Shown: positions 24,908 to 60,104 of the stretch, in pieces
How positions within the stretch are numbered: the first letter of the stretch is position 1
Layout: the number at the start of each line of letters is the position of its first letter
Assembly: GCA_035528575.1 (NCBI GenBank)
Contig: DATKYK010000036.1
Location: forward strand, 1 to 64,000
Direction of reading: 5' to 3'
DNA length: 64,000 nt
Source: Dehalococcoidia bacterium
GTDB lineage: Bacteria; Chloroflexota; Dehalococcoidia; E44-bin15
Program-made: the position numbers and the translations under genes
The notes under the pieces: model-generated
Told to the model about the DNA's origin: nothing
Database searches by the model: none
Seen by the model: the letters and a program-made list of their open reading frames with translations, nothing else

Positions 24908-25334
24908 TATGAAGTTGAAATGCAGCCAGACATGTCAGCACACAGACGATCGGGAAGCTGCGGATAATAGCTAACCCTTCATTTGTTATGTGGGCATTTA
25001 TTTGGAGCCAGCATTATAGTTCAGTGTTGATATACTATGAAGGCAAAAAGCTCTCTCAATAAAATACTTATTGCGATACATTAAGTGTCTTCTTCTTGGC
25101 TTAGGTGATGGCGCAGCATTGTCAGTTGAATCCTATAATAAGTTGAGATCGCGGAAATAATCCGTTAAACTATTGAGGCTACCCCTTACCTATTCTAGGA
25201 TCTGGAGGTTGCGTCACAAATGCGGCAGAACGGATATATGAGCATCATAAAGAATTATAACCTAATGCTATTATCACCCCGACCATGAGTATATAGGAGA
25301 GCATGCTTTGGCCGCAGGTAAAAGTGGAGGAGAT

Positions 25335-27789: not shown

Positions 27790-27799
27790 TGTATTTCAC

Positions 27800-29152
27800 T
27801 TAATATTTATCAAAATCCTTATTTATCACCCTGTGGTACAGAATACGGAAATAACCTACATACATACGTAAAACCCGGAGAGGGATATTTCTCAGCAGAA
27901 ACTTGCCTAACTCGCAAGAGGTGAGACGACTGTTTGTAAACGCTATTGCTCCTATAAGTATATTCGGCAGGCTAGCCCCTGTCCTTGAACACGTATATGT
28001 TTCCCTTTTCCAGAACTTCGGCAACCCCTTACGCCAGTTGAGATTCACCTTTTTAAAATGCAGGAATACCTTTTGTGATCTGATGACATCCCTGGCATTT
28101 GATACCTCCAATTCAACTGCCCCCGCAGAATTTGCTGCATGTAGTAGTGCTTCACCTCGCTCTGACCTAGATATCACTACAGATTTACCCTTGTGCTCCG
28201 CTTTTATTATCTCCGGCAGCCAGGGATCGCCAAAGGAAATATCAGCCAGTTCATTGGTCACGTCACCGCATGAAAGGCAGCATGATGGGGTAAAGAAAAA
28301 ACCGCCGAAAATATTGTTCCATAAAGAACCTCGGTTAGGGAGAAACCTCTCGCCTCCATTTTTCAACCTTATCCCTATTCCTCCGGGCCACCCTCCTCCG
28401 CGATAGGATATTTCTATAAACTCTTCACTTCTGATGCCGAGCTTCCTCAGCAGGAATTCGGTGCCATCAAAGCTGACCGTATGCGAACAGAAAATCCCCA
28501 AATGGAGGCTTATTCTCTCTCTTAGCGTCTTGCTAACTGCTTCGGCCTTTCTAATACCATAAATGTGACAAGGGAGCCCTACAACCGCATATTTCCCATC
28601 TTTTTGGAGAATTTCCCTGATAGCAATGTTTGCCGGTACAGGACAGTATTTGGAGCCTAAGGCCAGAAGTATATCTTCTCTCGTTCTCGCTATAAAGGGC
28701 TCGGGGGCCAAAGGATTATCTTTCTTCATCCTCGTCACCAGCGCGCCATCAATGAAGCCCTGCTCTAGGGCAAAGATCAACAATGAAGTCACCAGTCCAC
28801 CTGATGCTGAATTGTACCTGATCTCGGAATCAGTGGCATGAGCGAGGTAACAGCCGATGTAGTTGCCCAGCAGGCTGTCTTTCGGCTCTTTACCAAATAC
28901 CTCTAGGTTCAGCCCGGCCAGGTTAACGAAATATCCGGGGCAGGCCTTAACACAAATCCCACATTGGTTACACTCGCCCTCAATCAATTCCGGCAAATAT
29001 ATACCTTTTCGTATATCATATCTCATGCGGATAGCCGAAGTAGGGCAAATACCCACACAGGTTCCGCAGCCGGTGCAAAGACCGCTTTTCATTACCTGCT
29101 TAACAGTGCCAGATACTTTAATTGCTGTCCTTTCCTGCTCCGTACGTGGCAA
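27800..29152 (-). CDS. Coenzyme F420 hydrogenase/dehydrogenase beta-subunit family protein, copy 1
   Basis: About 450-residue iron-sulfur flavoprotein-like enzyme. Two N-terminal [4Fe-4S] sets are CTGCGTCVGIC and CNQCGICVKAC; the FrhB N-domain follows (YNSASGGLVTSLLIFALEQG, VVGLPCHIYGIRKAE), then the C-domain with CCLSCGDVTNELADISFGDP. Family members oxidise or reduce F420 or related flavins; those inside glycan loci, next to pyruvyltransferases, have no proven role and are thought to alter a sugar redox state. The start is uncertain (TTG at 29152 is the frame opening). Paired with the pyruvyltransferase just downstream; the same pair recurs at 57-60 kb. Confidence 0.9.
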   Translation of the reverse strand: MPRTEQERTAIKVSGTVKQVMKSGLCTGCGTCVGICPTSAIRMRYDIRKGIYLPELIEGECNQCGICVKACPGYFVNLAGLNLEVFGKEPKDSLLGNYIGCYLAHATDSEIRYNSASGGLVTSLLIFALEQGFIDGALVTRMKKDNPLAPEPFIARTREDILLALGSKYCPVPANIAIREILQKDGKYAVVGLPCHIYGIRKAEAVSKTLRERISLHLGIFCSHTVSFDGTEFLLRKLGIRSEEFIEISYRGGGWPGGIGIRLKNGGERFLPNRGSLWNNIFGGFFFTPSCCLSCGDVTNELADISFGDPWLPEIIKAEHKGKSVVISRSERGEALLHAANSAGAVELEVSNARDVIRSQKVFLHFKKVNLNWRKGLPKFWKRETYTCSRTGASLPNILIGAIAFTNSRLTSCELGKFLLRNIPLRVLRMYVGYFRILYHRVINKDFDKY

Positions 29153-29585: not shown

Positions 29586-29781
29586 TCTAAATCCAGGGGT
29601 GTTACAATAATCCGGGGGCAGGTCAACTTTTTTATATTAGGCTGTTACGGATTGTTTCTAAAAAATTCGCTAAAAGATATATGAGAGAAATTTCCTTAGG
29701 ATTATGCCCTGATGCTGTGATATCTATTGTATAATATGTATCATAAAGCATGATTTGACCGCAGGTAAAGTAGGAATAGGT

Positions 29782-30777
29782 ATGACCAATCTTGCTCCAC
29801 AAAGGTCCTCAGTAAAAGACCATCCTGAACTCTCAGTAATAATCGTTAACTGGAATACCAGGGATTTACTTCGTGATTGCCTGAACTCTGTCTATGCTGA
29901 GACCAAGGCGACCTCGTTCGAGACCCTTGTTGTGGATAATGCCTCTTCTGATGGCAGCGCTGAGATGGTAAAAAGGGAGTTCCCACGGGCCAAGCTGATT
30001 GAGAATAAAGAGAATCTGGGCTTTGCGAGAGCCAACAATCAAGCCATCAGGCAGAGTAGTGGCAGATTCATTCTATTACTTAATTCAGATACTGTTGTTC
30101 TCTCAGGTGCCCTGGACAAAATGGTAGCCTTTATGAAGGCGCACCGTGCTGTCAGTGCATCGGGACCAATGCTATTAAACCCTGACGGATCACTCCAGCA
30201 ATCCACTTTAGGTAGTTTGGGTAATTTCAACTTCGTCCGCTTTCTAATTATTGGTAGTGATTTTTTGGTTGCCTATCTTCCAAAATTGCTGTTAAGGAAA
30301 ATAGGTAAAAAGGAAACTTATAGCCCTCAACCCCGACAAGTGGGTGGAGTATCTGGGGCTAGTATGATGATAACCAGAGAGGCAATAGATAAAGTAGGTT
30401 TACTCGATGAGCAATACTTTTTCTTTATGGAAGAGGTCGACTGGTTTTATAGGCTTCAGCAATTAGGTGGGGTAGTATACTTTGTCCCTGAGGCACAAAT
30501 AATCCACCATTTTGCTCAAAGTATAAACCAGACTGATAACAGGTCCAAATATTTACACGAAAATAGGTACCGGTTTATAAATAAATACTATGGGAAAATG
30601 CGCGGGTGCTTTTTCAGAATCATGCTGGTAATTGACTCCTTTTTTATAATTTGTGCCTTTTTGCTGCTACAAGCATGGGTTAGAGGAGATAAGCGCAAGG
30701 AAATAAACTGGAGATTGAGGTGTCGCTGGAGAACATTACTTTGGGCTATTGGAAGCAACAAAGGCGGTTCTAATTAA
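29782..30777 (+). CDS. Family 2 glycosyltransferase, rhamnosyltransferase (WbbL)-like, paralogue
   Basis: 331-residue paralogue of the gene at 25335. The N-terminal 120 residues are almost identical (SVIIVNWNTRDLLRDCLN, VVDNASSDGSAEMVKREFP, ENLGFARANNQAI, LLLNSDTVVL), while the middle (residues ~140-190, GSLGNFNFVRFLIIG region) differs strongly, as expected if acceptor specificity has changed. C-terminal hydrophobic helix FFIICAFLLLQAWV. ATG 29782 follows TAGGAATAGG; the frame also opens at TTG 29755. Confidence 0.92.
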   Translation: MTNLAPQRSSVKDHPELSVIIVNWNTRDLLRDCLNSVYAETKATSFETLVVDNASSDGSAEMVKREFPRAKLIENKENLGFARANNQAIRQSSGRFILLLNSDTVVLSGALDKMVAFMKAHRAVSASGPMLLNPDGSLQQSTLGSLGNFNFVRFLIIGSDFLVAYLPKLLLRKIGKKETYSPQPRQVGGVSGASMMITREAIDKVGLLDEQYFFFMEEVDWFYRLQQLGGVVYFVPEAQIIHHFAQSINQTDNRSKYLHENRYRFINKYYGKMRGCFFRIMLVIDSFFIICAFLLLQAWVRGDKRKEINWRLRCRWRTLLWAIGSNKGGSN

Positions 30778-37495: not shown

Positions 37496-37620
37496 GAGAC
37501 TGCTAAAATAGTCTCAGTCAACCCCCTAATCCCCCAATCTTGGGGGACTTTTTAAAGCTGGGGGACACCCCCAGAACCCCCGTCCCGATTATATCGGGGC
37601 ACCTCTTTTTCAGCGGTCTC
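37496..37620 (-). mobile_element. MITE-like element, full copy B (inverted)
   Basis: 125 bp, same element as copy A in the opposite orientation, ending in GAGACTGCTAAAA and TTTTTCAGCGGTCTC, with a perfect 5-bp target duplication TATCT (37491-37495 and 37621-37625). It differs from copy A by a substituted palindromic block, CCCGATTATATCGGG. The 37621-37823 remainder shows no gene. Confidence 0.85.
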
Positions 37621-37823: not shown

Positions 37824-38789
37824 TCATGATAGCTTGCTCTTACGCATCTTACCGATTACCGCCCTTACCAACCTGAACCTGCGGTTTCCAAGCAAGAACC
37901 CCAGCAAAATCATCCATCCAGCAACAGCGAACGGGTTATTCCACGCGAGGGCTACGTACTTCTTGAGTGCGTCGCCTCTTCGTCCTCTCTCAAACGCCGC
38001 TTGCGCTTCAAGTAGAAGAAGTATAGCGAACACTTTTCTTTTCACATCTTTGCGGTCTCTCGCCGAAAGGTTTTGAAGTAAATGGCGATTTCTCTCATAG
38101 GTCATCTTCATTGTGCTAATATGAAGATCCCTGCTTGATATCATGGAGATTCCCTTAGGATGTTGCCGGTATTCAACCAAGGGGATAGGACAATAAGCGA
38201 CCGTGAATCTGCTGGTAAAGCGAATCCTCATGTCCCAGTCCTCCCATATGTGAAGCTCTTCATCATAGAAGCCCACTTGCTCCAGGGCATCACGAGTCAT
38301 AAGTTCATTCCTATATGTATGGCCCTTAGGCCAGTCAAGGCTAAAGGTTTCTTTTAAAACGTATCCACTAGGAGGGGCATCGCGTTCGGCCCAGAGGCCT
38401 GTTCTCTGCCCATGCTCATCAATGTAGTAGATGTTTGAGAAGACCGTACTAGCCTCTGGATGTCGCTGCAGTGTCTCAAGCTCCAACTCGAGTTTGCTAG
38501 GCAAGAACCTATCATCACCGTCTAGGAAAGAGATCAAATCCCCTCGCACTTGCCTCAGGGCAAAATTGCGGTTCTTCGGAATGCCCAGTCCTTTTTCGTG
38601 GCAGAATGCTATTATTAGGTCGGGATAGCGCCTGGCATAATCCAGAATCATATCCTGGGAACCATCGGATGAGCAATCATCGACGATAATGATTTCGTAG
38701 GGTAAGAGCGTCTGTTTCAGAACAGATTCAATCGCCTCGCGCAGGTAATTCTTCTGGTTATATGATGTGATAATAACCGAGATCTTCAA
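37824..38789 (-). CDS. Family 2 glycosyltransferase
   Basis: 321-residue GT2 enzyme. ISVIITSYNQKNYLREAIES, IIVDDCSSDGSQDMILDY, IPKNRNFALRQVRGD and ISFLDGDDRFLPSKLELE (DGDD metal motif) are clear; YDEELHIWEDWDMRIRF is the acceptor-side block. The C-terminal third is basic and helical. The start is TTG 38789 behind GAGGA. Isolated minus-strand gene between the MITE-bearing spacer and a methyltransferase. Confidence 0.92.
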   Translation of the reverse strand: MKISVIITSYNQKNYLREAIESVLKQTLLPYEIIIVDDCSSDGSQDMILDYARRYPDLIIAFCHEKGLGIPKNRNFALRQVRGDLISFLDGDDRFLPSKLELELETLQRHPEASTVFSNIYYIDEHGQRTGLWAERDAPPSGYVLKETFSLDWPKGHTYRNELMTRDALEQVGFYDEELHIWEDWDMRIRFTSRFTVAYCPIPLVEYRQHPKGISMISSRDLHISTMKMTYERNRHLLQNLSARDRKDVKRKVFAILLLLEAQAAFERGRRGDALKKYVALAWNNPFAVAGWMILLGFLLGNRRFRLVRAVIGKMRKSKLS

Positions 38790-38942: not shown

Positions 38943-39473
38943 CTATTTACCCCTTCTTGGCCAAGCATCCACGATGAGACTGCTATATGATAGGGGAACC
39001 TCCCTATTCCTAAGACCGTAATCGGCAGAGCGTACTACAAATCCATCGCTTGTCTCCCATGGTGAGCGATGAAATTGCCCCGCTTCGTCGAAATACTCCA
39101 GCAGGTTGTGATCGTACTGCTCCTCGGATAGGACACGCGTAATCGTGACGTGATTATAAAGGACCTTATGGTCGTCAGCACCGATCCCGCTCCCCCCTGG
39201 CTTCACAAAGTCTATGTAAGACGGATCAGGATGAAAACCATCGGGGACGGCTATTCTTATGAACCCTTCCTTGGTCAGAAGCGGTTGGACGTTCCTCAAG
39301 AACAAGCGAAAACTGTCTTCGGTCCAGTGCTCAATAACGTGCTCTGCCAGAATCCGGTCTATACCGCCTCGCGGGAAGATACTCCTCCAGTGTGCTGGAT
39401 TCAAAGCATCTAAGACGGGAAGATCAGTGTATAGCCAGTCCTCGTATGTTCGAGTAGCAGATCCTATAACCAC
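38943..39473 (-). CDS. SAM-dependent methyltransferase, possibly 5'-truncated
   Basis: 176-residue methyltransferase of the group that starts with a G-S/C-G motif and lacks a long N-terminal lead: VVIGSATRTYEDWLYTDLPV, then RILAEHVIEHWTEDSFRLFL (the H-V-x-EH block), VQPLLTKEGFIRIAVPDGFH and HRSPWETSDG. The start is GTG 39473. Translating further upstream in the same frame gives RQRAKTLCREGRPVK, which reads like the usual lead, but a TAG cuts it 18 codons before the GTG. The gene may thus have lost its 5' end, or simply start at GTG. Confidence 0.75.
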   Translation of the reverse strand: MVIGSATRTYEDWLYTDLPVLDALNPAHWRSIFPRGGIDRILAEHVIEHWTEDSFRLFLRNVQPLLTKEGFIRIAVPDGFHPDPSYIDFVKPGGSGIGADDHKVLYNHVTITRVLSEEQYDHNLLEYFDEAGQFHRSPWETSDGFVVRSADYGLRNREVPLSYSSLIVDAWPRRGK

Positions 39474-39609: not shown

Positions 39610-39950
39610 CTAGTCGCCACGACCCCTCGCTTTCAGCCCCGGGCATCGGTTAAATAGTCGACGTAGGAGCGCTGGACAGTCTGTGTTCATAATTAGGATT
39701 TCGTTGACTCTATTGCCCTCACCGAACAAGTCCGTCCGGTAATCGAGCCTGGGCGTCTCCTGAGAGGATAAACTGCTTAGCTTCGGAGACAACTATCGAT
39801 GCGAGAGACCGGAATAAACCAACATTGGAATAAGGCTCGAGACTACCTTTTCGCAGGTCAAAGCCAGTCTTCAAGTCCAATCTAATAATTTCTTGCCCTT
39901 CTGACTTCAATTTGCTGCTTGAGCCAGCCCCATCTAGAACTCGGTTTTTT
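39610..39950 (-). pseudogene. Fragmented methyltransferase-like remnant
   Basis: Minus-strand frames between the two neighbouring genes encode KNRVLDGAGSSSKLKSEGQE and IIRLDLKTGFDL, which resemble motif I and II of a class I methyltransferase, then drift between frames, with SRVNEILIMN-type sequence (NRVNEILIMNTDCPALLRRL) in a different frame at the 3' end. No continuous gene. Overlaps the 3' end of the next glycosyltransferase by a few bases. Confidence 0.35.
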
Positions 39951-40920
39951 TCAGCAACCATACTCTTTCCTGTACCTGGATTTCCTGTGTGTCCGCCAGC
40001 CCCCACTGGGGGCCGTTTTGATATGGCAGGTTTCCGTAGATGTCGAAGCTCTCACCATGATGCGGCTTCACCCCATGAACTATCGATTCCGGATGGTCGA
40101 GATGAAAATATGAACCGATATACCGCGGTTTCACGCCCAAGTGATACAACTGGGCCAATCCGCGCCGATCGCATCCGCTTCGTCTGCCGGTCAGCGATTC
40201 GTCATAGCCACGCGCCTTATACCACGCATCTCTATGAGCAAGCAGGAAATCCCCTATATAGTTGTGTTCCTTATTCATTATATATGTTAACCGGTGCAGT
40301 TTGCGATTGGCAAGTGTACGAAGAGACAGTCTCCGGCCACCCCACTTAAACTCGGTTCTGTTTGTGCCATACAGATATTCTTTTTGCAAACGGTGCAGAC
40401 GATTGGTTATCTCGGGCCCCAACACGACATCTGGATTCATAACGCAGACCCATGGCGTCCTTGCTCTCCTGATGCCAACATTCTTGGCAAAGTATTCCAT
40501 CACCGGGATGTCAGGATTGGTAGAGAGACTATCATGTATTTCCGGCGGCACTACGTATACGCGCAGATTGGGGAATCGCTTCACCAGCCAGCCTGCATCT
40601 GATCGTTGCTCCGGCAAACGGTTCCACTCTACGTAGATTACCTCTCCGTCTATGTAGCGAAGGTTCCATGACAGTGTGGCCTCAATCCTGGATCTGAGGT
40701 CCCCGTGATAGAGGTCACTACGTCCAATAAGAACAATCGTGATCTCCGGTTTGCCACAAACGGCTATAATCACTAGGTGCCATAGTCGGAACAGCGTCAA
40801 CTCGAGCAACCATTTTACGTAGTACCTCGAAACTTCCAAGCCATATCGATAAAACCATCCGGCGGCTGCCCTAGGATGAGTAATGGCCCGGTAAAGCTTA
40901 GCCTTGATGTGCCATTCCAT
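39934..40920 (-). CDS. Glycosyltransferase-like protein (GT-A type)
   Basis: 328-residue protein. ITIVLIGRSDLYHGDLRSRI starts a GT-A-like domain; EYFAKNVGIRRARTPWVCVM then NPDVVLGP supplies the DxD-equivalent NPD; YIGDFLLAHRDAWYKARGYD and RRGLAQLYHLGVKPRYIG are acceptor-side elements. An N-terminal segment WLLELTLFRLWHLVIIAVCG is hydrophobic and could anchor the protein. ATG 40920 (after GGGTGAC) is preferred to the frame opening at 40959. Probably a membrane-associated GT2-like enzyme; specificity unknown. Confidence 0.8.
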   Translation of the reverse strand: MEWHIKAKLYRAITHPRAAAGWFYRYGLEVSRYYVKWLLELTLFRLWHLVIIAVCGKPEITIVLIGRSDLYHGDLRSRIEATLSWNLRYIDGEVIYVEWNRLPEQRSDAGWLVKRFPNLRVYVVPPEIHDSLSTNPDIPVMEYFAKNVGIRRARTPWVCVMNPDVVLGPEITNRLHRLQKEYLYGTNRTEFKWGGRRLSLRTLANRKLHRLTYIMNKEHNYIGDFLLAHRDAWYKARGYDESLTGRRSGCDRRGLAQLYHLGVKPRYIGSYFHLDHPESIVHGVKPHHGESFDIYGNLPYQNGPQWGLADTQEIQVQERVWLLKKTEF

Positions 40921-41058
40921 AATAGTCACCCGGTGCGGCGAAGCGCTCTTGCAGACCAACTAATGGATCTAATGAGTTCTGATTTTCTACTCCATATTTC
41001 GGCCTTGAGAGTCCTTGTATCAGGGATCGCTTGATGAAAGTGGATCGGTTAGCAGGCG

Positions 41059-42879
41059 CTAGATTTCTTCCTCTTGCCTGCTGTAAAGCTCCCAATATTT
41101 CCCTTTTTTATTGAGCAGTTGGTCATGTGTGCCGCTCTCCACAACCCTCCCCCCATCGAGAACATATATCGCATCTGCGTTCCTGATAGTTGACAGCCTG
41201 TGGGCAACTACCAGTGTTGTGCAGCTCTCGGATACCTTGTCGATCGCCTTCTGGACGACCCTCTCCGAGATATTATCCAAGGCGCTTGTGGCTTCATCCA
41301 GCACCAATATTTGTGGCCTTCGAATCATGGCCCTTGCGATGGCGATACGTTGTCTTTCGCCGCCGGAAAGCCTCACTCCACGATCGCCAACAACGGTATC
41401 ATAGCCCGCATCAAGCTGCTGGATAAACTCATGAGCGCCGGCCACTTGCGTTGCTTCCATTATCTTGTCCAAATCATACTCAGTTCCGAATTCGATATTA
41501 TCCTTTACCGATGCGTTGTAGATAAACGTCTCCTGCCCTACGAACCCAACTGCGCTCTGAAGTGAAGACAGCTCGTAATCTTTGATATCCACACCATCGA
41601 TCAGTATGACGCCGTTGTCTACATCGTACAGTCGTAGGAACAGGTCCACAATGGTTGACTTGCCGGCGCCGGACGGACCGACTATTGCGGTCACCTTGTC
41701 CTTATCTACTCTGAGTGAGATGTCACTCACAGTGACACTCTCTTTGTTCTTGTGAGTGAAGCTGACGTTTCTCAACTCGATTCCCGACCGAAGCCCGGAG
41801 AACCCCCTGGTTCCATTTATAATCTTGCTATAGGTTTTATCCTCCAGAAGCTCATAAGTTACCTCCAGATTTGGCAGTGCATTCATGATCCCCATTATCT
41901 GGGAACCGAGACCTGACACGCGGGGAAGCAATCTAAATGCCGCATAACCGAATGTACCGATCAACGGAAGCAGGGAAGCGAAACTATAGGGCCATACCCA
42001 CCAGACCACAATTATAAAGATTGCAATTGAAAGATACATCAGCATGTCCAGAACTCGTGTAGGTATCGCTGTCCACACTGCATTCTTTACCCAAAACCGC
42101 CACCGAGTCATTACCGCTTCGTTAAACCGTTGTTGCCATCTCGAAAACGTCCCGGTAGTGATAATCTGCTTGGCTCCGGTTATGTACTCGTTTAACACCA
42201 CATTTTCGTCCTGACTGGCCAACAGCATTCCCTTTCCCGCGACATAGGAAACCTTAACACTCAGGTACCTGGTAAAGTAGGAGTAGGCTATACCGCCAAG
42301 CAACACACCGATCGTGGCCTTCCAGGAGAGGGAGAAGAGCAGGGCCAGCACCGATATTAACAGTACGATTGCAGCGAGAGATGTCGTCATTGCCATTAAT
42401 ATAGTCGCTATGGATTCAGGTGCTCCTTTAGCCTTGTACAGTAGGTCGCCCTGTCTATTATCGACAAAGAACTGGTAGTCGAACTGGGTATACTTCTGGA
42501 ATACCTTTTTTTTGTAGTCTGTCGACACCTTCGCAGTCGTTCTCGCAGATAGATTGATATACACCAACATGACCAGAAAGACCAGGAGCGTCAATATAAT
42601 AAACACGATGGAGTTCGCTACCAGGACGCTATCAACCGGGATAATTCCTGCTATATGGCTTAGGACGATAAAGAAGGGGTTACCACTCAGGTAGCTTGGC
42701 TGATCTAAGGTTGCCTGCAGTATGGGGAACAAAACAGCCATTAGCAGAGTTTCGAGGTAGCCAGCAATTATAGCAAGGCCCAGCAGCATGAACAATCGGC
42801 CCTTATAGTTCCTGAGGAAGAACCAGATCGTTCTCAGTCTGCTGGTCTTTGCCTCACCCTCAGATCGCTGTTGTTTCAT
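41059..42879 (-). CDS. ABC transporter, fused permease/ATPase, lipid-linked glycan flippase (PglK/MsbA-like)
   Basis: 606-residue half-transporter. Residues ~20-330 form the exporter membrane domain with six predicted hydrophobic helices (for example LFMLLGLAIIAGYLETLLMA, IVFIILTLLVFLVMLVYI, IAIFIIVVWWVWPYSF). The ATPase domain has Walker A GPSGAGKST, signature LSGGERQRIAIARAM, Walker B ILVLDEATSALD and switch His in VVAHRLSTIRN. In this locus it is the only intact candidate for flipping the lipid-linked glycan across the membrane, since both Wzx genes are decayed. Homodimer expected. ATG 42879; single gene on the minus strand. Confidence 0.9.
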   Translation of the reverse strand: MKQQRSEGEAKTSRLRTIWFFLRNYKGRLFMLLGLAIIAGYLETLLMAVLFPILQATLDQPSYLSGNPFFIVLSHIAGIIPVDSVLVANSIVFIILTLLVFLVMLVYINLSARTTAKVSTDYKKKVFQKYTQFDYQFFVDNRQGDLLYKAKGAPESIATILMAMTTSLAAIVLLISVLALLFSLSWKATIGVLLGGIAYSYFTRYLSVKVSYVAGKGMLLASQDENVVLNEYITGAKQIITTGTFSRWQQRFNEAVMTRWRFWVKNAVWTAIPTRVLDMLMYLSIAIFIIVVWWVWPYSFASLLPLIGTFGYAAFRLLPRVSGLGSQIMGIMNALPNLEVTYELLEDKTYSKIINGTRGFSGLRSGIELRNVSFTHKNKESVTVSDISLRVDKDKVTAIVGPSGAGKSTIVDLFLRLYDVDNGVILIDGVDIKDYELSSLQSAVGFVGQETFIYNASVKDNIEFGTEYDLDKIMEATQVAGAHEFIQQLDAGYDTVVGDRGVRLSGGERQRIAIARAMIRRPQILVLDEATSALDNISERVVQKAIDKVSESCTTLVVAHRLSTIRNADAIYVLDGGRVVESGTHDQLLNKKGKYWELYSRQEEEI

Positions 42880-43243: not shown

Positions 43244-44179
43244 TTACTTGCTTTGCCTATTGACTAGCCCCGCCAAGATCCCTCCAGCCATATTAAGCGC
43301 CCATAGAAAGCACCTGAGCTTCATTTTCACAAAGACGGACAACTTCCGGGGCCGCGGTTTCACAAACAAGAACTTGGGGCTAGGTTCCAATAAAGCCCTG
43401 ACTAGAGTGCGGGTTATATCTAACGTATACCAAAGCAGCACCTTCGGTAAATATCTCGGGTAATACTTCTTAAGTATCAGAATATGATTTCTACAGAGTA
43501 AGTAGTTAACCTCCATCCGTGGTATGCTTGGCTCCAGATAATGCGCAACCAGTTTTTCGGGAAACATACATGCTTTATAATCCGTTTCAGCCTGGAGTCT
43601 CAGGCCAAACTCAACATCTTCGTGGTACATACGGTAGTTCTCGTCAAAAAGCCCTATCCGGTCAAAAACATCCTTCCTATAAAAGGGGGCAGTTCCGGCA
43701 ATCCAATCTACCGGGCGTATTCCCTGAAAATCATCCGTCAGGTTCACCGGAAGCCCCCCTTTAAAACTCCCTCCGGTGAACCAGTTATCTCCATCCTGAT
43801 CTACCATGATACAGGATAATACACCTATGGAACCGTCGGCATCCAGGATTTCGACGTTTCTCTCCACAAAATTGCTTTTCACCTCAGTGTCTGCATTCAG
43901 CAGGCAGATATATTCTCCCTTTGCCAGTCCGATCCCTTTGTTGCAGGTTTTAATGAAACGCATGTTTTCGGTGTTTTCAACCAGGCGCATGTTTCTATGG
44001 TCTTTGATAAATGTTTCAATGTACTCCACTACTGACCTGTCCGGCGTGGCATCGTCTATGATTATGACCTCATAATCACCAAATGTCTGATCTGTAATGC
44101 TCGGCAGCAGTCTTTTTAAATATTCCTTCTGATTGTAGTGTGGGATTATGATGCTAACCTTACACATGCTGTTTTCCAT
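43244..44179 (-). CDS. Family 2 glycosyltransferase, tandem paralogue 1
   Basis: 311-residue GT2 enzyme, one of four tandem copies. KVSIIIPHYNQKEYLKRLLP, IIIDDATPDRSVVEYIETF, ENTENMRFIKTCNKGI and YICLLNADTEVKSNFVERN (DxD region) lead to GDNWFTGGSFKGGLPVNLTD and the block NYRMYHEDVEFGLRLQ. The C-terminus is shared with the other copies and ends LVNRQSK. Copy 1 shares its N-terminal allele with copy 2 but has its own segment YLEPSIPRMEVNYLLCRNH around residue 225. ATG follows AAGGGGCAGA. All four transcribe leftward and are separated by 40-140 bp. Confidence 0.93.
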   Translation of the reverse strand: MENSMCKVSIIIPHYNQKEYLKRLLPSITDQTFGDYEVIIIDDATPDRSVVEYIETFIKDHRNMRLVENTENMRFIKTCNKGIGLAKGEYICLLNADTEVKSNFVERNVEILDADGSIGVLSCIMVDQDGDNWFTGGSFKGGLPVNLTDDFQGIRPVDWIAGTAPFYRKDVFDRIGLFDENYRMYHEDVEFGLRLQAETDYKACMFPEKLVAHYLEPSIPRMEVNYLLCRNHILILKKYYPRYLPKVLLWYTLDITRTLVRALLEPSPKFLFVKPRPRKLSVFVKMKLRCFLWALNMAGGILAGLVNRQSK

Positions 44180-44216
44180 TCTGCCCCTTGCAGTTTTCGC
44201 TTCATTTAGCCCATGT

Positions 44217-45155
44217 TTACTTGCTTTGCCTATTGACTAGCACTGCCAAGATCCCTCCAGCCATATTAAGCGCCCATAGAAAGCACCTGAGCTTCATTTT
44301 CACAAAGAGGAACAACTTCCAGGGCCGCGGTTTCACAAACAAGGACAAATTGGGGGTAGGTTCCAATAAATCCCTGACTAGAGTGCGGGTTATATCTAAC
44401 GTGTACCAGAGCAGCACCTTCGGCAAATATCTCGGGTAATACTTTTTAAGCATCAGAATATGATTTCTACGGGCTAAGTCGTACATTTCACGCAATGGTA
44501 TGCTCCCCGCTAAATAGTGCGCGACCAGTTTTTCGGGAAACATACATGCTTTATAATCCGTTTCAGCCCGGAGTCTCAGGCCAAACTCAATATCTTCGTG
44601 GTACATACGGTAGTTCTCGTCAAGAAGTCCTATCCGGTCAAAAACATCCTTCCGGTAAAAGGGGGCAGTTCCAGCGACGAAATCTACCGGGCGTATTCCC
44701 TGAAAATCGTCTTTCAGGTTCACCGGAAGCCCCCCTTTGAAACTCCCTCCGGTGAACCAGTTATCTCCGTCCTGGTCGACTATCACGCAGGATAACGCAC
44801 CTATGGAACCGTCGGCATCCAGGATTTCGACGTTTCTCTCCACAAAATTGTTTTTCACTTCAGTGTCTGCATTCAGCAGGCAGATATATTCTCCCTTTGC
44901 CAGTTCGATCCCTTTGTTGCAGGTTTTGATGAAACGCATGTTCTCGGTGTTTTCGACCAGGCGCATGTTTCCATGGTCTTTGATAAATGTTTTGATGTAC
45001 TCCACTACTGACCTGTCCGGCGTGGCATCGTCTATGATTATGACTTCATAATCAGCGAATGTCTGATTTGCAATGCTCGGCAGCAGTCTTTTCAAATATT
45101 CCTTCTGATTGTAGTGTGGGATTATGATGCTAACTTTACACTTGCTGTTTTCCAT
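44217..45155 (-). CDS. Family 2 glycosyltransferase, tandem paralogue 2
   Basis: 312-residue GT2 enzyme, nearly the same as copy 1 over residues 1-220 (KVSIIIPHYNQKEYLKRLLP, YICLLNADTEVKNNFVERN, HEDIEFGLRLRAETDYKACM). It differs in the short segment YLAGSIPLREMYDLARRNH and in a few positions near the C-terminus. Start is ATG 45155 after CAGGGGGCAGA, aligned with copy 1; the upstream frame extension to 45173 is not used. Between copies 2 and 3 lies a partial MITE-like element. Likely adds a sugar to the same kind of acceptor as its paralogues. Confidence 0.92.
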   Translation of the reverse strand: MENSKCKVSIIIPHYNQKEYLKRLLPSIANQTFADYEVIIIDDATPDRSVVEYIKTFIKDHGNMRLVENTENMRFIKTCNKGIELAKGEYICLLNADTEVKNNFVERNVEILDADGSIGALSCVIVDQDGDNWFTGGSFKGGLPVNLKDDFQGIRPVDFVAGTAPFYRKDVFDRIGLLDENYRMYHEDIEFGLRLRAETDYKACMFPEKLVAHYLAGSIPLREMYDLARRNHILMLKKYYPRYLPKVLLWYTLDITRTLVRDLLEPTPNLSLFVKPRPWKLFLFVKMKLRCFLWALNMAGGILAVLVNRQSK

Positions 45156-45197
45156 TCTGCCCCCTGCAATCACGCCGGCTTGCCCCGCCTGCAGCCA

Positions 45198-45235
45198 CCC
45201 CGATAAAATCGGGGCACCTCTTTTTCAGCAGTCTC
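45198..45235 (+). mobile_element. MITE-like element, partial copy D
   Basis: Only the outer end of the element is present: CCCCGATAAAATCGGGG hairpin, then CACCTCTTTTTCAG and the terminal GCAGTCTC. It sits in the spacer between GT2 copies 2 and 3, with the same flank (GGATGAGGATTAAGCCGTAG) as partial copy E. Confidence 0.75.
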
Positions 45236-45296
45236 CGGATGAGGATTAAGCCGTAGAACCTGGGATGACCCGTATTTCGCTTCAGTTAGCCCATGT

Positions 45297-46259
45297 TTAC
45301 TTGCTTTGCCTATTGACTAACCCCGCCAAGATCCCTTCAGCCATATTAAGCGCCCATCGAAAGCACCTGAGCTTCATTTTCACAAAGAGGAACAACTTCC
45401 AGGGCCGCGGTTTCACAAACAAGGACAAATTGGGGCTAGGTTCCAATAAAGCCCTGACTAGAATGCGGCTTATATCTAACGTGTACCAGAGCAGCACCTT
45501 CGGCAAATATCTCGGGTAATACTTCTTAAGTGTCAGAATATGATTTCTACAGCCTAAGTAATACACTTCCTTAATTATTATGCGCATCTCTTCTGAACAG
45601 TCCACACTTGGTTTATTGTGTACAACCAGTTTTTCGGGAAACACACATACTTTATAATCCGTTTCAGCCCGAAGTCTCAGGCCAAACTCAATATCTTCGT
45701 GGTACATATGGTAGTTCTCGTCAAAAAGCCCTATCCGGTTAAAAACATCCTTCCTGTAAAAGGGTGCAGTTCCAGCGACGAAATCTACCGGGCGTATTCC
45801 CTGGAAATCATCCGTGAGGTTCACCGGAAGCCCCCCTTTAAAACTTCCTCCGGTGAACCAGTTATCTCCATCCTGGTCGACTATTACGCAGGATAACGCA
45901 CCTATGGAACCGTCGGCATCCAGGATTTCGACGTTTCTCTCCACAAAATTGCTTTTAACCTCAGTGTCCTGGTTCAGCAGGCAGATATATTCTCCGTTTG
46001 CCAGTCTAATTCCTTTATTGCAGGTCTTCACAAAACCCAGGTTCTCTCCATTCTCAATCAACCGCATGTTTCTATAGTCTTTGATAAATGTTCTTACATA
46101 TTCCAACACTGACTCATCCGGTGAAGAATCATCTATGATGATAACTTCGTAATCGTTAAATGTCTGATTTGCAATGCTTGGCAACAGCCTTTTTAAATGT
46201 TCCTTTCCATTATAGCTCGGGATTATTACACTGACTTTGTTCCCGCCTTGTTCCATCAT
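45297..46259 (-). CDS. Family 2 glycosyltransferase, tandem paralogue 3
   Basis: 320-residue GT2 enzyme. N-terminal allele differs from copies 1-2 and matches copy 4: ENGENLGFVKTCNKGIRLA and YICLLNQDTEVKSNFVERN. The middle (DADGSIGALSCVIVDQDGDN, GGSFKGGLPVNLTDDFQGIR) is common to all four. It carries the longest variant segment, HNKPSVDCSEEMRIIIKEVY then YLGCRNH, about nine residues longer than in the other copies. C-terminus again LVNRQSK. ATG follows GGAGGGAT. Confidence 0.92.
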   Translation of the reverse strand: MMEQGGNKVSVIIPSYNGKEHLKRLLPSIANQTFNDYEVIIIDDSSPDESVLEYVRTFIKDYRNMRLIENGENLGFVKTCNKGIRLANGEYICLLNQDTEVKSNFVERNVEILDADGSIGALSCVIVDQDGDNWFTGGSFKGGLPVNLTDDFQGIRPVDFVAGTAPFYRKDVFNRIGLFDENYHMYHEDIEFGLRLRAETDYKVCVFPEKLVVHNKPSVDCSEEMRIIIKEVYYLGCRNHILTLKKYYPRYLPKVLLWYTLDISRILVRALLEPSPNLSLFVKPRPWKLFLFVKMKLRCFRWALNMAEGILAGLVNRQSK

Positions 46260-46298
46260 ATCCCTCCACGGCCACGCCGGCTCACTATTCCTGCAGCC

Positions 46299-46337
46299 AC
46301 CCCGATTTTATCGGGGCACCTCTTTTTCAGCAGTCTC
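46299..46337 (+). mobile_element. MITE-like element, partial copy E
   Basis: CCCCGATTTTATCGGGG hairpin followed by CACCTCTTTTTCAG and GCAGTCTC, as in partial copy D, in the spacer between GT2 copies 3 and 4. The shared flanks show that it was duplicated together with the glycosyltransferase gene. Confidence 0.75.
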
Positions 46338-46398
46338 CAGATGAGGATTAAGCCGTAGACCCCGGGATGACCCGTACTTCGCTTCAGTTAGCCCATGT

Positions 46399-47334
46399 TT
46401 ACTTGCTTTGCCTGTTGACTAACCCCGCCAAGATCCCTTCAGCCATGTTAAGCGACCATGAAAGCCACAAGCGCTTCCATTTCACAAAGAGGAACAACTT
46501 CCACGGCTGCGGTTTCACAAACAGGAACCTGGGGCCAGGTTTCGATATAAAACTGACTAGAAAACGGCTTATTTCTAACGTATACCAAAGCAGCACCTTC
46601 GGCAAATATCTCGGGTAATACTTCTTAAGTATCAGAATATGATTTCTACAGCTAAAGTAGTATACTTCACTCCTTGGTATGCTCCCCGCTAAATAGTGCG
46701 CGACCAGTTTTTCGGGAAACATACATGCTTTATAATCCGTTTCAGCCCGGAGTCTCAGGCCAAACTCGATATCTTCGTGGTACATACGGTAGTTCTCGTC
46801 AAAAAGCCCTATCCGGTCAAACACCTCCTTCCTGTAAAAGGGGGCAGTTCCAGCGACGAAATCTACCGGGCGTATTCCCTGAAAATCGTCTTTTAGGTTC
46901 ACCGGAAGCCCCCCTTTGAAACTCCCTCCGGTGAACCAGTTATCTCCGTCCTGGTCGACTATCACGCAGGATAACGCACCTATGGAACCGTCGACATCCA
47001 GGATTTCGACGTTTCTCTCCACAAAATTGCTTTTAACCTCAGTGTCCTGGTTCAGCAGGCAGATATATTCTCCGTTTGCCAGTCTAATTCCTTTATTACA
47101 GGTCTTCACAAAACCCAGGTTCTCTCCATTCTCAATCAACCGCATGTTTCCATGGTCTTTGATAAATGTTTTGATATACTCCAGTACTGACCTATCCGGT
47201 GAAAAATCATCTATGACTATGACTTCATAATCAGCGAATGTCTGATTTGCAATGCCCGGCAGCAGCCTTTTCAAATATTGCTCTCCATTGTAGTGTGGGA
47301 TTATGATGCTAACCTTACAACTGCTGTTTTGCAT
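46399..47334 (-). CDS. Family 2 glycosyltransferase, tandem paralogue 4
   Basis: 311-residue GT2 enzyme. It combines the copy-3 type N-terminal allele (ENGENLGFVKTCNKGIRLA, LLNQDTEVKSNF) with a copy-2 type segment after residue 220 (HYLAGSIPRSEVYYFSCRNH) and a C-terminal part of its own (EISRFLVSFISKPGPRFLF, WKRLWLSWSLNMAEG) before the common LVNRQSK. The patchwork points to recombination among copies. ATG follows CAGGAACTAGA. First gene of the leftward array. Confidence 0.92.
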   Translation of the reverse strand: MQNSSCKVSIIIPHYNGEQYLKRLLPGIANQTFADYEVIVIDDFSPDRSVLEYIKTFIKDHGNMRLIENGENLGFVKTCNKGIRLANGEYICLLNQDTEVKSNFVERNVEILDVDGSIGALSCVIVDQDGDNWFTGGSFKGGLPVNLKDDFQGIRPVDFVAGTAPFYRKEVFDRIGLFDENYRMYHEDIEFGLRLRAETDYKACMFPEKLVAHYLAGSIPRSEVYYFSCRNHILILKKYYPRYLPKVLLWYTLEISRFLVSFISKPGPRFLFVKPQPWKLFLFVKWKRLWLSWSLNMAEGILAGLVNRQSK

Positions 47335-47387: not shown

Positions 47388-47600
47388 CTACGTAGGATCC
47401 ATGAATATCCGTAGAGTCTCAATCCTAATGTCATTAGGCCCACAGGCTACGGCGGCGATGAGGCAGCCACCTTGTAGAGGAGACGTTAGCATGGGCGGTC
47501 CAATACTTGCCTCTGTCAAGCAAGCATCATGTCCGTCACATTCTACTTTCGCATAGCCATCTTCGGGCCTGAACGTCGCTACGTGTCGCCAGGTTTTCAA
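47388..47600 (-). CDS. Small protein coupled to the radical SAM gene, unknown
   Basis: 70-codon frame whose TTG start overlaps the TGA stop of the radical SAM gene (TTGA), suggesting translational coupling. The product is Cys-containing and uncharged in the middle (KVECDGHDACLTEASIGPPM, LQGGCLIAAVACGPNDIRIE), with no family recognised. It may be a real small protein, a substrate peptide of the radical SAM enzyme, or a C-terminal leftover of a broken gene. No ribosome site is obvious. Confidence 0.35.
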   Translation of the reverse strand: MKTWRHVATFRPEDGYAKVECDGHDACLTEASIGPPMLTSPLQGGCLIAAVACGPNDIRIETLRIFMDPT

Positions 47601-48700
47601 ATACGCTGTCTGATTTGGAGAGTGCTTTCTTCAATTGACATCGTATTTGCCTTTCTATACCTTCTACTTGAGAATTCGCTCCTCAAGCCATCGACAGCTA
47701 CCTTGGGATGATACGGAGGATAGCGAATCCACGCTTCCTTAATCATTTCGGCCATCACCGATGAAGCAGAACCTTTCGTACTTGATATTTGTCCTTGATA
47801 AATCAGAGGACAAGTGCACATTCGTACCGGACATGGTTTAGGGTGTTCGTCGAAATAGTATTTCCCGGTGAAGAAGTTTCCATACCTCTTTTGCGATGAC
47901 AGACAACGACCCAGGTTGCCCATATAGTCCATGTGGAAGGAATACGTACCAGTACCGCACAGTCTTCCAAAGGCATTGAGGTGCATCATATCAATTTCAC
48001 GTGTGTCCCAAGCGCGTGATTTTAGCAATATCTTTTCTTCTTCGGTGTAAGAGGCCGGGTATGTTGCTCCCGCGTATATGCCTTGAAATGGCCTGAAGAA
48101 AAAGGAGTCTATCCCTCGCGATGTGAAATACTCCATGTCCTTCAGTGCTCGAGGAATGAGAGGGGGATAGACAACATACTGCACACTGACATTGAAACCC
48201 TTGTCCTGAAGACATATGACCTTATCGATGAATTCCTCGACACCGTTTCTCCTTTTCTCCCTCTCCATGATATGAAGGGATGCAACAACCCTCAGGACTT
48301 TTTGCGATGGAATGACATCGGCGAACTGGTAGACATTGGGCGTTGAGAGATTTGTTGCTACCTCGACGTAGTGTATCTGAGTCAAGGCCCTGACCAGTTC
48401 TACAAATTGTGGGTACAGAAAACACTCACCCCCGCCCATCAGCAAGATTTTCCAAACCTTGCCTGTGCTGTCGAAACACCTTGCTATATGCTCTGGGCTA
48501 TACTTACCGACTGCCGGTTGTTCCCTTCGTCGAGGTTGTGGTTCCGTTTCGGCACAATCCTTTGAGAATATTTGGCATGAGGCAGAGCAATAGACGCAAT
48601 TGTAGTTGCATAACATATTGGTGACCCAGAGCATCGAATAGTCTGGCTTTGCCCTAGCACTGGTACTCGACGGTTGTGAATGCGTATCCAAGGTGCTCAC
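47597..48700 (-). CDS. Radical SAM protein, SPASM-like C-terminus
   Basis: 367-residue radical SAM enzyme. MLCNYNCVYCSASCQIF holds the CxxxCxxC that binds the [4Fe-4S]/SAM cluster; ILLMGGGECFLYPQFVEL is the GGE motif; VEVATNLSTPNVYQF and VVASLHIME follow the barrel. A C-terminal group of cysteines (GRCLSSQKR, CPVRMCTCPLIYQG) suggests a second cluster. The 50 residues before the cluster are Ser/Pro-rich. GTG start at 48700 is weakly supported. Radical SAM proteins occur in surface-glycan loci with unknown reactions, possibly sugar deoxygenation or epimerisation. Followed at once by a small overlapping frame. Confidence 0.88.
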   Translation of the reverse strand: MSTLDTHSQPSSTSARAKPDYSMLWVTNMLCNYNCVYCSASCQIFSKDCAETEPQPRRREQPAVGKYSPEHIARCFDSTGKVWKILLMGGGECFLYPQFVELVRALTQIHYVEVATNLSTPNVYQFADVIPSQKVLRVVASLHIMEREKRRNGVEEFIDKVICLQDKGFNVSVQYVVYPPLIPRALKDMEYFTSRGIDSFFFRPFQGIYAGATYPASYTEEEKILLKSRAWDTREIDMMHLNAFGRLCGTGTYSFHMDYMGNLGRCLSSQKRYGNFFTGKYYFDEHPKPCPVRMCTCPLIYQGQISSTKGSASSVMAEMIKEAWIRYPPYHPKVAVDGLRSEFSSRRYRKANTMSIEESTLQIRQRI

Positions 48701-48977
48701 CTAGTTCAAAACTAAACGTATCCTTCAAGTTCGGTTATATGGCGTTTTCTTTTTTGCTACGTTTATTTTCCCTATTTCCAATCCCTCCACGGCCAAGCCG
48801 GCTCGCTCTGCCTGTAGTCACGTTTAGCTGGCTCATAACGGCTACGCCAGAGGCTCCCTATCGAGACACCAACGTTGATATCCGTGGCTGTTAGGTATTC
48901 TACGCTACCGGCGGTGCTTTTTCAACTTGGGTGCAGCAACAAGGCTCCGTCACAGATGACAGCACCATATATCTAGG

Positions 48978-50903: not shown

Positions 50904-51026
50904 GAGACCGCTGAAAAAGAGGTGCAGGATACTTCCTGCCAGGGGTCTGGGGGTGTCCCCCAGCTTTAAAAAGTCCCCCAAGATTGGGGGATATAGGGGG
51001 TTGATTAAGACTATTTCAGCAGTCTC
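50904..51026 (+). mobile_element. MITE-like element, full copy C
   Basis: 123 bp, same orientation as copy A and nearly identical to it. Terminal repeats GAGACCGCTGAAA and TTTCAGCAGTCTC; flanking pentamers GTCAT and GTTAT differ at one base, consistent with an aged 5-bp target duplication. It lies in the spacer of the deoxysugar operon and separates the epimerase from the RmlD-like gene. Confidence 0.85.
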
Positions 51027-57232: not shown

Positions 57233-58477
57233 CTAATTAATCTTCCATCCAAGTTGTACTAGCTTATCCACTATGATTCTTGTTGTCTTTCTGGACTCCT
57301 CTTTCAGTAGTGGATTTATGGCGATGAGCCGCTCTTTGACCGTGTCGTAGTTTTGTTCCAAGACTTCGAATCTGTTGATAATCTCGCCTGCGCTTATATC
57401 TTCTACATTAAGCATAAAATCCGTAAAGCCCACCTTTCGGGCGAATCCCTCAGCTTTGTGCTCGTAATATATGGATATAAATGGCGTGTTTCCTTTGACA
57501 GCAAATACAACCGGATGATATCGCATACTTATGAGACAAAACAGCTTAGAAATTAATACCTGTTGCCCGTAGGAATCTACATTCGGGGGGCAGATATATA
57601 CCTGCCCTTTGCTTTTCTCGCGGATTCTCTCAAGTAATCTAATGTCCATACCCTGGATCACCGGGTGTTTCCCAAACATCTGTGGTATGAGCAATATGGA
57701 ATATCCTTTCTCAAGCAGATAATTAACAATCTCCGAGCAACAGGCCATTATGTTCTCCGCCAGACCTTCAGAGTGTCTATACCTGGGATGCCATTTTAGA
57801 TTCGTTACCACCATACCAACCGTTTTCTTTCCTTCAAGCAGCTCTAACGTATCTTTGAGATTATCATATCTTTGTATATAGTCTTCGGATACGTCGTTTT
57901 GGAGAGCAGAGTCCAGGGTTACCCATGCTTCCAACCCCAATTGATCCCTTAAATAGCCATAAGAGATTTCATCCCTGAGTATTGTGGCGTCTGCTCTCCT
58001 GAGCACAAATTTTCTGGCCCGGTTCCTGAGTCTCCCTGAAAACGGACCCATTGAAGGGGCATAGAAGAACAGCGGCTTCTTCTTGAACACCTTTGCTACC
58101 AGCAATCGATACAGATAGCCAAGGTCGCCCATCGCATTCAAATCGCCGATGGTTGGACCGCCCGGGGCATGAATCACCACATCTGCTTCATTCACCGCCC
58201 GGATAAATCTTCTGCCCCGCCTGGTAAGCGAAAACTTCCCGAATGTTAACATATTGAATACGGCGTCCAGACGCTCCACTAGACGGGCCAACCCTAACCA
58301 AGTTGGATAAAGCTCAAGCATTTCAATATCACCGTAAGGGAACTGCTCAGACAAGCCCACGATCATGATCCACATCTTCTCGACGGGAAGCTCTGCTCTC
58401 AAAGAATCGATCATCGCCCTTATGGCGGCTTCGTCGCCCCGATTACTCCAGTGAGCGTGCAAGATTAGAATTTTCAA
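57233..58477 (-). CDS. Polysaccharide pyruvyl transferase family protein, copy 2
   Basis: 414-residue paralogue of the gene at 26536. The same blocks are present: ILILHAHWSNRGDEAAIRAM, DVVIHAPGGPTIGDLNAMGD, LFFYAPSMGPFSGRLRNRAR and CLISMRYHPVVFAVKGNTPF. It also starts at TTG (58477), behind AAGGTGAAATGCA. It ends at LGWKIN, near-identical in DNA to copies 1 and 3. Six bases separate it from the F420-type gene upstream, so the pair is co-transcribed. Two intact, diverged copies suggest different acceptor sugars. Confidence 0.92.
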   Translation of the reverse strand: MKILILHAHWSNRGDEAAIRAMIDSLRAELPVEKMWIMIVGLSEQFPYGDIEMLELYPTWLGLARLVERLDAVFNMLTFGKFSLTRRGRRFIRAVNEADVVIHAPGGPTIGDLNAMGDLGYLYRLLVAKVFKKKPLFFYAPSMGPFSGRLRNRARKFVLRRADATILRDEISYGYLRDQLGLEAWVTLDSALQNDVSEDYIQRYDNLKDTLELLEGKKTVGMVVTNLKWHPRYRHSEGLAENIMACCSEIVNYLLEKGYSILLIPQMFGKHPVIQGMDIRLLERIREKSKGQVYICPPNVDSYGQQVLISKLFCLISMRYHPVVFAVKGNTPFISIYYEHKAEGFARKVGFTDFMLNVEDISAGEIINRFEVLEQNYDTVKERLIAINPLLKEESRKTTRIIVDKLVQLGWKIN

Positions 58478-58483
58478 TGCATT

Positions 58484-59815
58484 TCACCTTGATTTGTCGA
58501 AGTACTTATTTATGACCCTGGAGTAGTATTTATAGAAAGAGTTGGTATACATACGCAAAACCTTGAGCGGGATATATCTCAATAGGAACCTGCCTGCCCT
58601 GGAGGAGCCGATACGGCTGTTTATAAGTGTTGAAGATGCTATCAGTCTATTGGAGAAGCAGGCCCCTGTCCTTGAAGACGTATCAACTCGGTTCTCAGAG
58701 ACATGCGATGGCCCCTTACGCCAGTTGATATTCACCTTCTTGAAATGCAAGAATACCCGCTGTGATCTGATGACATCCTTGGCATCCACGGCCTCTAATC
58801 CGATTGCCCCCTTTGAGCCTGCAGCATGCAGTAGGGCTTCACCCCGCTCCGACCTGGATATTACAACCGATTTACCTTCACGTTCCACTTTAACTATCGC
58901 CGGCAGCCAGGGGTCGCCGAAGGAGATATCAGCCAATTCATTGGTCACGTCACCGCATGACAGGCAGCAGGATGGGGTAAAGAAAGAACTGCTGAAAATA
59001 CTGTTCCATAACGGACCCAGGTTAGGTATGAACCTCTCGCTTCCATTTTTCAACCTGATCCCCAGTCTTCCGGGCCACCCACCTCCGCGGTAGGATATTT
59101 CTGCCAACTCTTCACTTCTGATGCCGAGCTTCCTCAGCAGGTATTCGGTGCCATCGAAACTGACCGTATGGGAACAGAAGATGCCGAAATGGAGGTCTAT
59201 TCTTTCCCTCAGTGTTTCGTCGCCAGCTTCGGCCTTTCTAATACCATTAATGTGGCAGGGAAGCCCTACAACCGCATATTTCCCATCTCTTTCGAGAATT
59301 TCCCTGAGAGCAATGTTTGCCGGCACAGGACAGTACTTGGAGCCCATGGACAGAAGGATATCCTCTCTTGTTCTGGCTATGAAGGGCTCAGGCTCTAGAG
59401 GGCTGTATTTATTCATCCTCGTCACCAGTGCGCCATCGATGAGGCCCTGCTCGAGGGCAAAGATCAGCAGCGATGTCACCAGTCCACCCGATGCTGAGTT
59501 GTATCTAATCTCGGAATCAGTGGCGTGGGCGAGGTAACAGCCTATGTAGTTACCCAGCAGGCTGTCTTCCGGCTCTTTGCCGAATACCTCCAGGTTCAGC
59601 CCGGCCATGTCAACGTAATAGCCAGGGCAGGCCTCAAGGCATATCCCACATTCATCGCATTTCTCATTATCTAGCTGTGGAAGGTAGGTCCCCTTGGACT
59701 CGTCTCTTACCATCTCTGGCGCCGAGCTGGGGCAGATGGCCACGCAGGTTCCGCATCCGGTACAGAGACCATTTCTCACAACCCGTTCTATTGTTTGACG
59801 GATTTCAGATTTCAT
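58484..59815 (-). CDS. Coenzyme F420 hydrogenase/dehydrogenase beta-subunit family protein, copy 2
   Basis: 443-residue paralogue of the gene at 27800. [4Fe-4S] sets CTGCGTCVAIC and CDECGICLEAC; the FrhB blocks YNSASGGLVTSLLIFALEQG, VVGLPCHINGIRKAE, the CCLSCGDVTNELADISFGDP motif and a variable C-terminal ~100 residues that differ from copy 1. I chose ATG 59815 because copy 1 aligns from there; the frame opens 30 codons earlier at 59905. Paired with the pyruvyltransferase copy 2. Role in glycan redox chemistry is inference. Confidence 0.9.
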   Translation of the reverse strand: MKSEIRQTIERVVRNGLCTGCGTCVAICPSSAPEMVRDESKGTYLPQLDNEKCDECGICLEACPGYYVDMAGLNLEVFGKEPEDSLLGNYIGCYLAHATDSEIRYNSASGGLVTSLLIFALEQGLIDGALVTRMNKYSPLEPEPFIARTREDILLSMGSKYCPVPANIALREILERDGKYAVVGLPCHINGIRKAEAGDETLRERIDLHFGIFCSHTVSFDGTEYLLRKLGIRSEELAEISYRGGGWPGRLGIRLKNGSERFIPNLGPLWNSIFSSSFFTPSCCLSCGDVTNELADISFGDPWLPAIVKVEREGKSVVISRSERGEALLHAAGSKGAIGLEAVDAKDVIRSQRVFLHFKKVNINWRKGPSHVSENRVDTSSRTGACFSNRLIASSTLINSRIGSSRAGRFLLRYIPLKVLRMYTNSFYKYYSRVINKYFDKSR

Positions 59816-60104
59816 ATGGTTTCGGCAGCAAATCACGCTTATGGGCAATTGCTCAGCATTAGACCATAAAATTGCCTTACTCGAACTCCCATTCTCTATC
59901 GGCATCTATATCGTAGGCCCCCTTATTTCCCCTTTATTCACTATTTGTTCTTTCACCCGGCAGTGGTCGAGGAGGTAAATTAGCTCTGCAACATTGAAAA
60001 CGTCACCAAAGCTACAAGTATACTGGAATTATATCACAGACACAGACAACCATTATAACTTAGTATCACGACCATGTATCTGCGAGCGCCCATAAGAAAT
60101 CACC

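Follow-up and report, generated by a model that had tools for sequence, protein, structure and literature searches.

Results

The tandem glycosyltransferase genes

The window, by which we mean the whole analysed stretch of 64,000 nt, encodes four GT2 glycosyltransferases in tandem at 43244-47334, as the initial annotation had proposed. All four ORFs are intact, full-length and have starts. They are arranged head-to-tail on the minus strand and flanked by genes for a radical-SAM protein (47597-48700) and an ABC exporter (41059-42879). The copies are numbered c1 to c4 by position (Table 1), and transcription runs from c4 to c1. Each of the four products scores 97-104 bits against the Pfam domain PF00535 (Glycos_transf_2), far above the cut-off of 23.3, and the proteins of the other copies share 80-89% identity with that of c1. 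The protein c2 has 312 aa if counted from the ATG that matches the start of the other copies. The DxD-like, xED and C-His residues, namely N95-x-D97, H186-E187-D188 and H213, are invariant in the array; D97, H186-D188 and H213 are also kept in all three outgroup homologues described below, and N95 in all of them except G208b. We found no fifth close copy and no silent cassettes in the 2.3 Mb genome (45 contigs), where the best match after the four copies has an identity of 29%.

The alignment bears out most of what had been read from the sequence at first. The N-terminal alleles are LLNADTEV in c1 and c2 (type A) and LLNQDTEV in c3 and c4 (type B), the copies have a common LVNRQSK end, and a segment near residue 225 is indeed distinct in each copy, the differences starting after about aa 214. 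The C-terminal part of c4 is unique as claimed, c4 being the divergent copy at aa ~261-303. The insertion and the middle need correction. The insertion in c3 is present but has a net length of seven residues, not about nine. The middle was described as near-identical, which is true of c2 and c4 (mostly 99-100% in DNA) but not of c1 and c3 (~90%), and the DNA identity of the middle is about 87-100% depending on the pair.

Table 1. Features of the glycosyltransferase array, with positions counted from the first nucleotide of the window
Feature	Position	Strand	Remark
c1, GT2 glycosyltransferase	43244..44179	-	311 aa, N-terminal type A
c1, variable segment (aa 214-229)	43493..43540	-	directly after C-His H213
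c2, GT2 glycosyltransferase	44217..45173	-	318 aa from GTG, N-terminal type A
c2, variable segment	44469..44516	-	
c3-c2 intergenic spacer	45174..45296	-	94% identical over 109 nt to c4-c3 spacer
Hairpin CCCCGATAAAATCGGGG in c3-c2 spacer	45198..45214	+	terminator-like on + strand
c3, GT2 glycosyltransferase	45297..46259	-	320 aa, N-terminal type B, 7-residue net insertion after C-His
c3, variable segment	45549..45617	-	insertion included
c4-c3 intergenic spacer	46260..46398	-	
Hairpin CCCCGATAAAATCGGGG, second copy, in c4-c3 spacer	46300..46316	+	
c4, GT2 glycosyltransferase	46399..47334	-	311 aa, type B within finer c2/c3 mosaic, divergent C-terminal part
c4, divergent C-terminal part (about aa 261-311)	46402..46554	-	predicted helices
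c4, variable segment	46648..46695	-	
c4, c2-like tract (about aa 102-220)	46675..47029	-	about 98-99% identity
c4, c3-like tract (aa 62-102)	47030..47150	-	1 mismatch in 121

Spacers and repeats

The c4-c3 and c3-c2 spacers, of 139 and 123 nt, are so similar that the duplicated unit is a gene together with its spacer. The c2-c1 spacer has just 37 nt. Both longer spacers hold a 38-nt repeat (45199-45235 and 46301-46337), which consists of a CCCCGAT-NNN-ATCGGGG hairpin followed by CACCTCTTTTT. This repeat also occurs at 37584-37620 and has about 30 copies in the genome; it is possibly a dispersed REP-like element that is terminator-like on one strand. The repeats found around the array are the GT2 genes, their spacers and dispersed elements. 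Promoter and terminator scans gave no excess over the shuffled expectation, and no RNA families or tRNAs were found in the 64-kb window. Two further repeats were observed here. A 58-nt inverted repeat pair (37522-37579 and 50942-50999, 93% complementary, 13.4 kb apart), itself rich in short palindromes, encloses the array, and the 41 nt upstream of c3 (46260-46300) are 85% identical to 48781-48821 upstream of the radical-SAM gene.

Mosaic structure of the four copies

There are 54 sites at which the copies divide two against two. The partition 12|34 prevails at nt 49-300 and 13|24 at nt 387-447, with mixed support beyond. The order of these sites is non-random (runs test, p=5e-5 to 1e-4), and the incompatible sites are clustered (PHI, p=2e-4), third positions alone giving the same outcome. 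The shared-fragment permutation test is significant for c1-c4, c2-c3, c2-c4 and c3-c4 (p<=4e-4). In models with none, one, two, three and four breakpoints, the AICc falls from 4868 to 4786, 4733, 4694 and 4666, respectively. We also painted each copy with a copying model that already permits fast and slow regions before any switching of donors. Donor switching improves the fit of c2 by 136, of c3 by 87 and of c4 by 126 log units, where column shuffles yield no more than 52, 39 and 53, respectively; for c1 the improvement is marginal (24.6 vs 17.6).

The synonymous divergence provides the best evidence of a mosaic, because it is little influenced by protein constraint. The dS between c3 and c4 drops from 0.95 in aa 1-60 to 0.04 in aa 61-105 (Fisher p=8e-6), and that between c2 and c4 from 1.10 in aa 61-105 to 0.08 in aa 106-208 (Fisher p=4e-7). 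Given the clustered incompatible sites, the gain of ~200 AICc units and these jumps of dS along the gene, the mosaic is not a product of chance.

A further correction concerns c4, which is itself a finer patchwork in its N-terminal part. Its painting is c1/c2-like up to aa ~16, alternates between c2-like and c3-like up to aa ~62, and is then c3-like at aa 62-102 and c2-like at aa 102-227. The c3-like tract has a dS of about 1 to c1 and c2.

The breakpoints expected by the initial annotation are strongly supported, but a single topology, ((c1,c2),(c3,c4)), forced on the three-breakpoint model with free branch lengths loses only 3.8 log units within the four copies. Among these copies alone, the signal is mostly one of segment-wise divergence, and the change of topology is weak. 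As the PHI and runs tests react to changes of divergence as well as of topology, outgroups are required.

Outgroups and the age of the N-terminal types

Of the 393 genomes of the class that we searched, only two, which belong to other families, contain close homologues. One of them, G208, encodes two homologues 3.7 kb apart (G208a and G208b, 64% and 58% to c2), and the other, G213, encodes one (55%). The orders of G208 and G213, a sample of the phylum and a second search of the class gave no further homologues, and viral contigs, GTDB r220 genome contigs and plasmids gave no useful close one.

In the best tree of aa 1-95, G208a joins c1 and c2, and G208b and G213 join c3 and c4. A tree that holds the four copies together in this block is at best 12 log units worse, and their monophyly is rejected (AU test, 0.035 for protein and 0.028 for DNA). 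In aa 96-215 the four copies are monophyletic, and here the A/B split is 12-15 units worse and is rejected (AU 0.007 for protein and 0.025 for DNA). Only with these outgroups does the conflict of topologies show clearly. These trees use three homologues and block limits picked after inspection of the alignment, and significance is lost when the N-terminal block is shortened (AU 0.05-0.24). The motif ENMRF of type A versus ENLGF of type B shows the same dimorphism, G208a and G208b differing likewise. The grouping of the N-termini across families has moderate support. Since types A and B differ in which homologue of the other families they are nearest to, both are probably older than the array, whether by descent or by import. 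The pairing of the N-termini as 1+2 and 3+4, which had been attributed to shuffling within the array, would then be an older dimorphism. As the copies are monophyletic in aa 96-215 but not in aa 1-95, it is the shared middle that appears to be the homogenised part.

The variable segment after the C-His

From the order of the motifs, H213 would be at the position of the GT-A C-His. We mapped the variable segment on a structure model of c4, as the initial annotation had envisaged. The model is a GT-A domain with a mean pLDDT of 82, reaching 94 at the last strand and falling to 68-70 at aa 211-230. This strand (202-213) ends at H213 and is followed by a loop, a helix (221-239) and two further helices. 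The differences between the copies (aa 214-233) and the c3 insertion map to the loop and the start of the helix, with a model pLDDT below 50 for the insertion loop of c3. In GT-A enzymes, the tail that follows the final core strand is the hypervariable region HV3, whose family-specific motifs serve acceptor specificity (PMC7185993). The variable segment begins where this region begins in the model, suggesting that it may lie at the acceptor site.

The synonymous divergence is raised in the variable segment in five of the six pairs (p 0.0007-0.046, uncorrected), so that most of its variation should be old. The segment seems to preserve old variation, either retained or imported, which was not homogenised, rather than fresh variants made in place. 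Only the pair c2-c4, with 9.5 non-synonymous versus 0.5 synonymous differences, resembles a recent protein change, on very few sites. We do not claim positive selection, as the sites are too few and dS is high in most other pairs. No origin of the variable segments was found elsewhere in the 64-kb window.

Gene cluster and predicted function

The cluster around the array encodes rmlC, rmlD, gmd and a GDP-fucose-synthase-like gene, the last below its curated cut-off, along with several methyltransferases (one matching a rhamnosyl O-methyltransferase), pyruvyl transferases and other glycosyltransferases. Among solved structures, those of RmlT, a TDP-rhamnose enzyme, and WrtF, a fucosyltransferase, have the closest folds, with sequence identities of about 20%. 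Together with the nearby rmlC and rmlD, RmlT as best fold match provides a context for possible transfer from dTDP-L-rhamnose. It is likely that c1-c4 are enzymes of a rhamnose/fucose surface glycan. Our best guess is that they are deoxyhexosyl transferases acting on different positions of this one glycan, a role we take as a working hypothesis because the copies score 57-78 bits against the rhamnosyltransferase model TIGR01556, below its cut-off of 200.55.

Three other observations were made in the window. A second duplicated GT2 pair (25308-26336 and 29755-30777) is 94-98% identical in DNA at aa 31-90 and 42-79% in the rest; this uneven similarity may be another partial conversion. A two-gene unit, encoding a polysaccharide pyruvyl transferase and an FrhB/ferredoxin-like protein, is duplicated at 26536-29152 and 57233-59905 with about 69% protein identity. 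Two ORFs (38943-39473 and 39934-40959) between a GT2 gene (37824-38789) and the ABC exporter gene have no Pfam or NCBIfam match.

Discussion

Our data are best explained, with a probability of roughly 70%, by tandem duplicates of pre-existing N-terminal types whose core was homogenised by recombination between the copies and whose acceptor segments stayed distinct. A GT-A (GT2) glycosyltransferase gene would have been duplicated in tandem within a rhamnose/fucose surface-polysaccharide cluster, types A and B being older than the present form of the array. RecA-type homologous recombination between the copies, in patches of ~30-375 nt and either non-reciprocal or by unequal crossing-over, would then have evened out the middle, along with most of the tail, and built the fine patchwork of c4. 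It would have spared the N-terminal half and the ~20-residue segment directly after the metal-binding C-His, c4 additionally retaining its distinct C-terminal part. With a catalytic core in common, the four enzymes would attach similar sugars at different sites of a single glycan, each with a linkage set by its own acceptor segment; the sugar would probably be a deoxyhexose, for instance L-rhamnose. Breakpoints together with segment-wise synonymous divergence, the marks of gene conversion, are both seen in the array, and in the converted part, though not elsewhere, the copies are nearer to one another than to their relatives, as in concerted evolution, with moderate support from three outgroups. 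Gene conversion or an equivalent homologous exchange among the copies, the former being the process first suggested for this array, is in this respect well supported as the probable molecular mechanism, unequal crossing-over or exchange after the import of a divergent homologue fitting equally well.

We speculate, with considerable doubt, that selection keeps the donor-side N-terminal dimorphism and the four acceptor segments distinct while homogenisation of the common catalytic core continues. The array would then be modular, with two donor types and four acceptor types re-assorted by conversion.

It is somewhat less probable still that the dimorphism is simply an import, i.e. that a divergent homologue was acquired horizontally, underwent one or two recombinations with a resident pair and has exchanged little since. 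The grouping of the c3 and c4 N-termini with G208b and G213 would fit this, as would the sporadic occurrence of homologues, in two other genomes among the 393 of the class. The multiple switches in c4 and the pair-specific tracts nevertheless require more than one or two events. Such an import is otherwise compatible with homogenisation between tandem duplicates, the sole difference being the origin of type B.

The array had also been seen as a possible generator of glycan diversity. The copies would then be mutual donor cassettes, hybrids would keep arising in the population, and the surface glycan would be altered as a result. We consider this improbable, even though at least three copies are mosaic, c4 contains several short tracts and the hypervariable segment adjoins the active site. 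The demonstrable effect of recombination is a homogenised middle and tail, which is the opposite direction. The N-terminal types seem to predate the array, and the variable segment, given its high synonymous divergence in most pairs, is not freshly made. All four copies are open and full-length with starts, the genome has no donor cassettes elsewhere, and the repeats of the region are accounted for by genes, spacers and dispersed elements. We see no sign of a dedicated variation machine here.

An assembly artefact is unlikely. The source is a metagenome bin assembled from short reads into 45 contigs, and exact repeats between the copies reach 103 nt, so strain variants of one or two genes could in principle have been merged into four. 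These repeats are however below the common short-read length, and the contig that surrounds the array is at least 131 kb long. Between the copies, the proteins differ by 11-20%, and the three spacers, of 139, 123 and 37 nt, are distinct. In addition, the switch of c4 from c3-like to c2-like is confined to a stretch where c2 and c3 match, and within this stretch c4 has a private SNP at 46994 (Ala to Val), a base that a chimera of other copies would lack. A chimera of this kind is thus very improbable. Weakest of all is a single tree without recombination, in which constraint merely varies along the protein: the small loss under one topology with branch lengths free per segment is in its favour, but the synonymous divergence shifts more than 10-fold between adjacent segments of one pair and the outgroup topologies conflict between blocks.

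The enzymes resemble RmlT of L. monocytogenes and WrtF, their best fold matches, in having the NxD, HED and C-His motifs and in being encoded with pathway genes of the TDP-rhamnose and GDP-fucose type. They differ from these in their low identity, in missing the TIGR01556 cut-off and in having a substrate that is predicted. The array is similar to gonococcal pilE/pilS in being a patchwork of alleles with conserved flanks. That system however uses silent truncated donors and a single expression locus, and here there is neither, but four full-length copies; the silent partial donor copies typical of cassette-type antigenic variation are absent from the array.

In Neisseria, lgtB and lgtE are similar and exchange with each other. 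The lgtABCDE genes are tandem LOS glycosyltransferase genes (PMC10327513) and, like ours, adjacent homologues for one glycan that are capable of recombining. Their diversity arises mainly by phase variation, whereas we noticed no phase-variable tract here and the copies are closer to each other. Concerted evolution and gene conversion of bacterial paralogues are already known (PMC6053082), a further example coming from an outbreak of M. tuberculosis (PMC12046097). As in those cases, the paralogues are over part of their length more alike than they are to relatives, with segment-wise divergence. Unlike in those cases, the process is partial, stopping at the N-terminal half and at the segment after the C-His, and the gene is a surface-glycan GT2. 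In the open library of literature we came across no direct precedent for such conversion between tandem glycosyltransferase genes of bacteria, although this does not prove that none exists.

By itself the array reveals no new variation system. It is rather a clean natural experiment that separates the exchangeable parts of a GT-A enzyme from those that are kept distinct, the core being homogenised and the segment after the C-His not. This segment directly offers candidate residues for acceptor specificity. In more general terms, partial concerted evolution can disguise old paralogues as recent copies.
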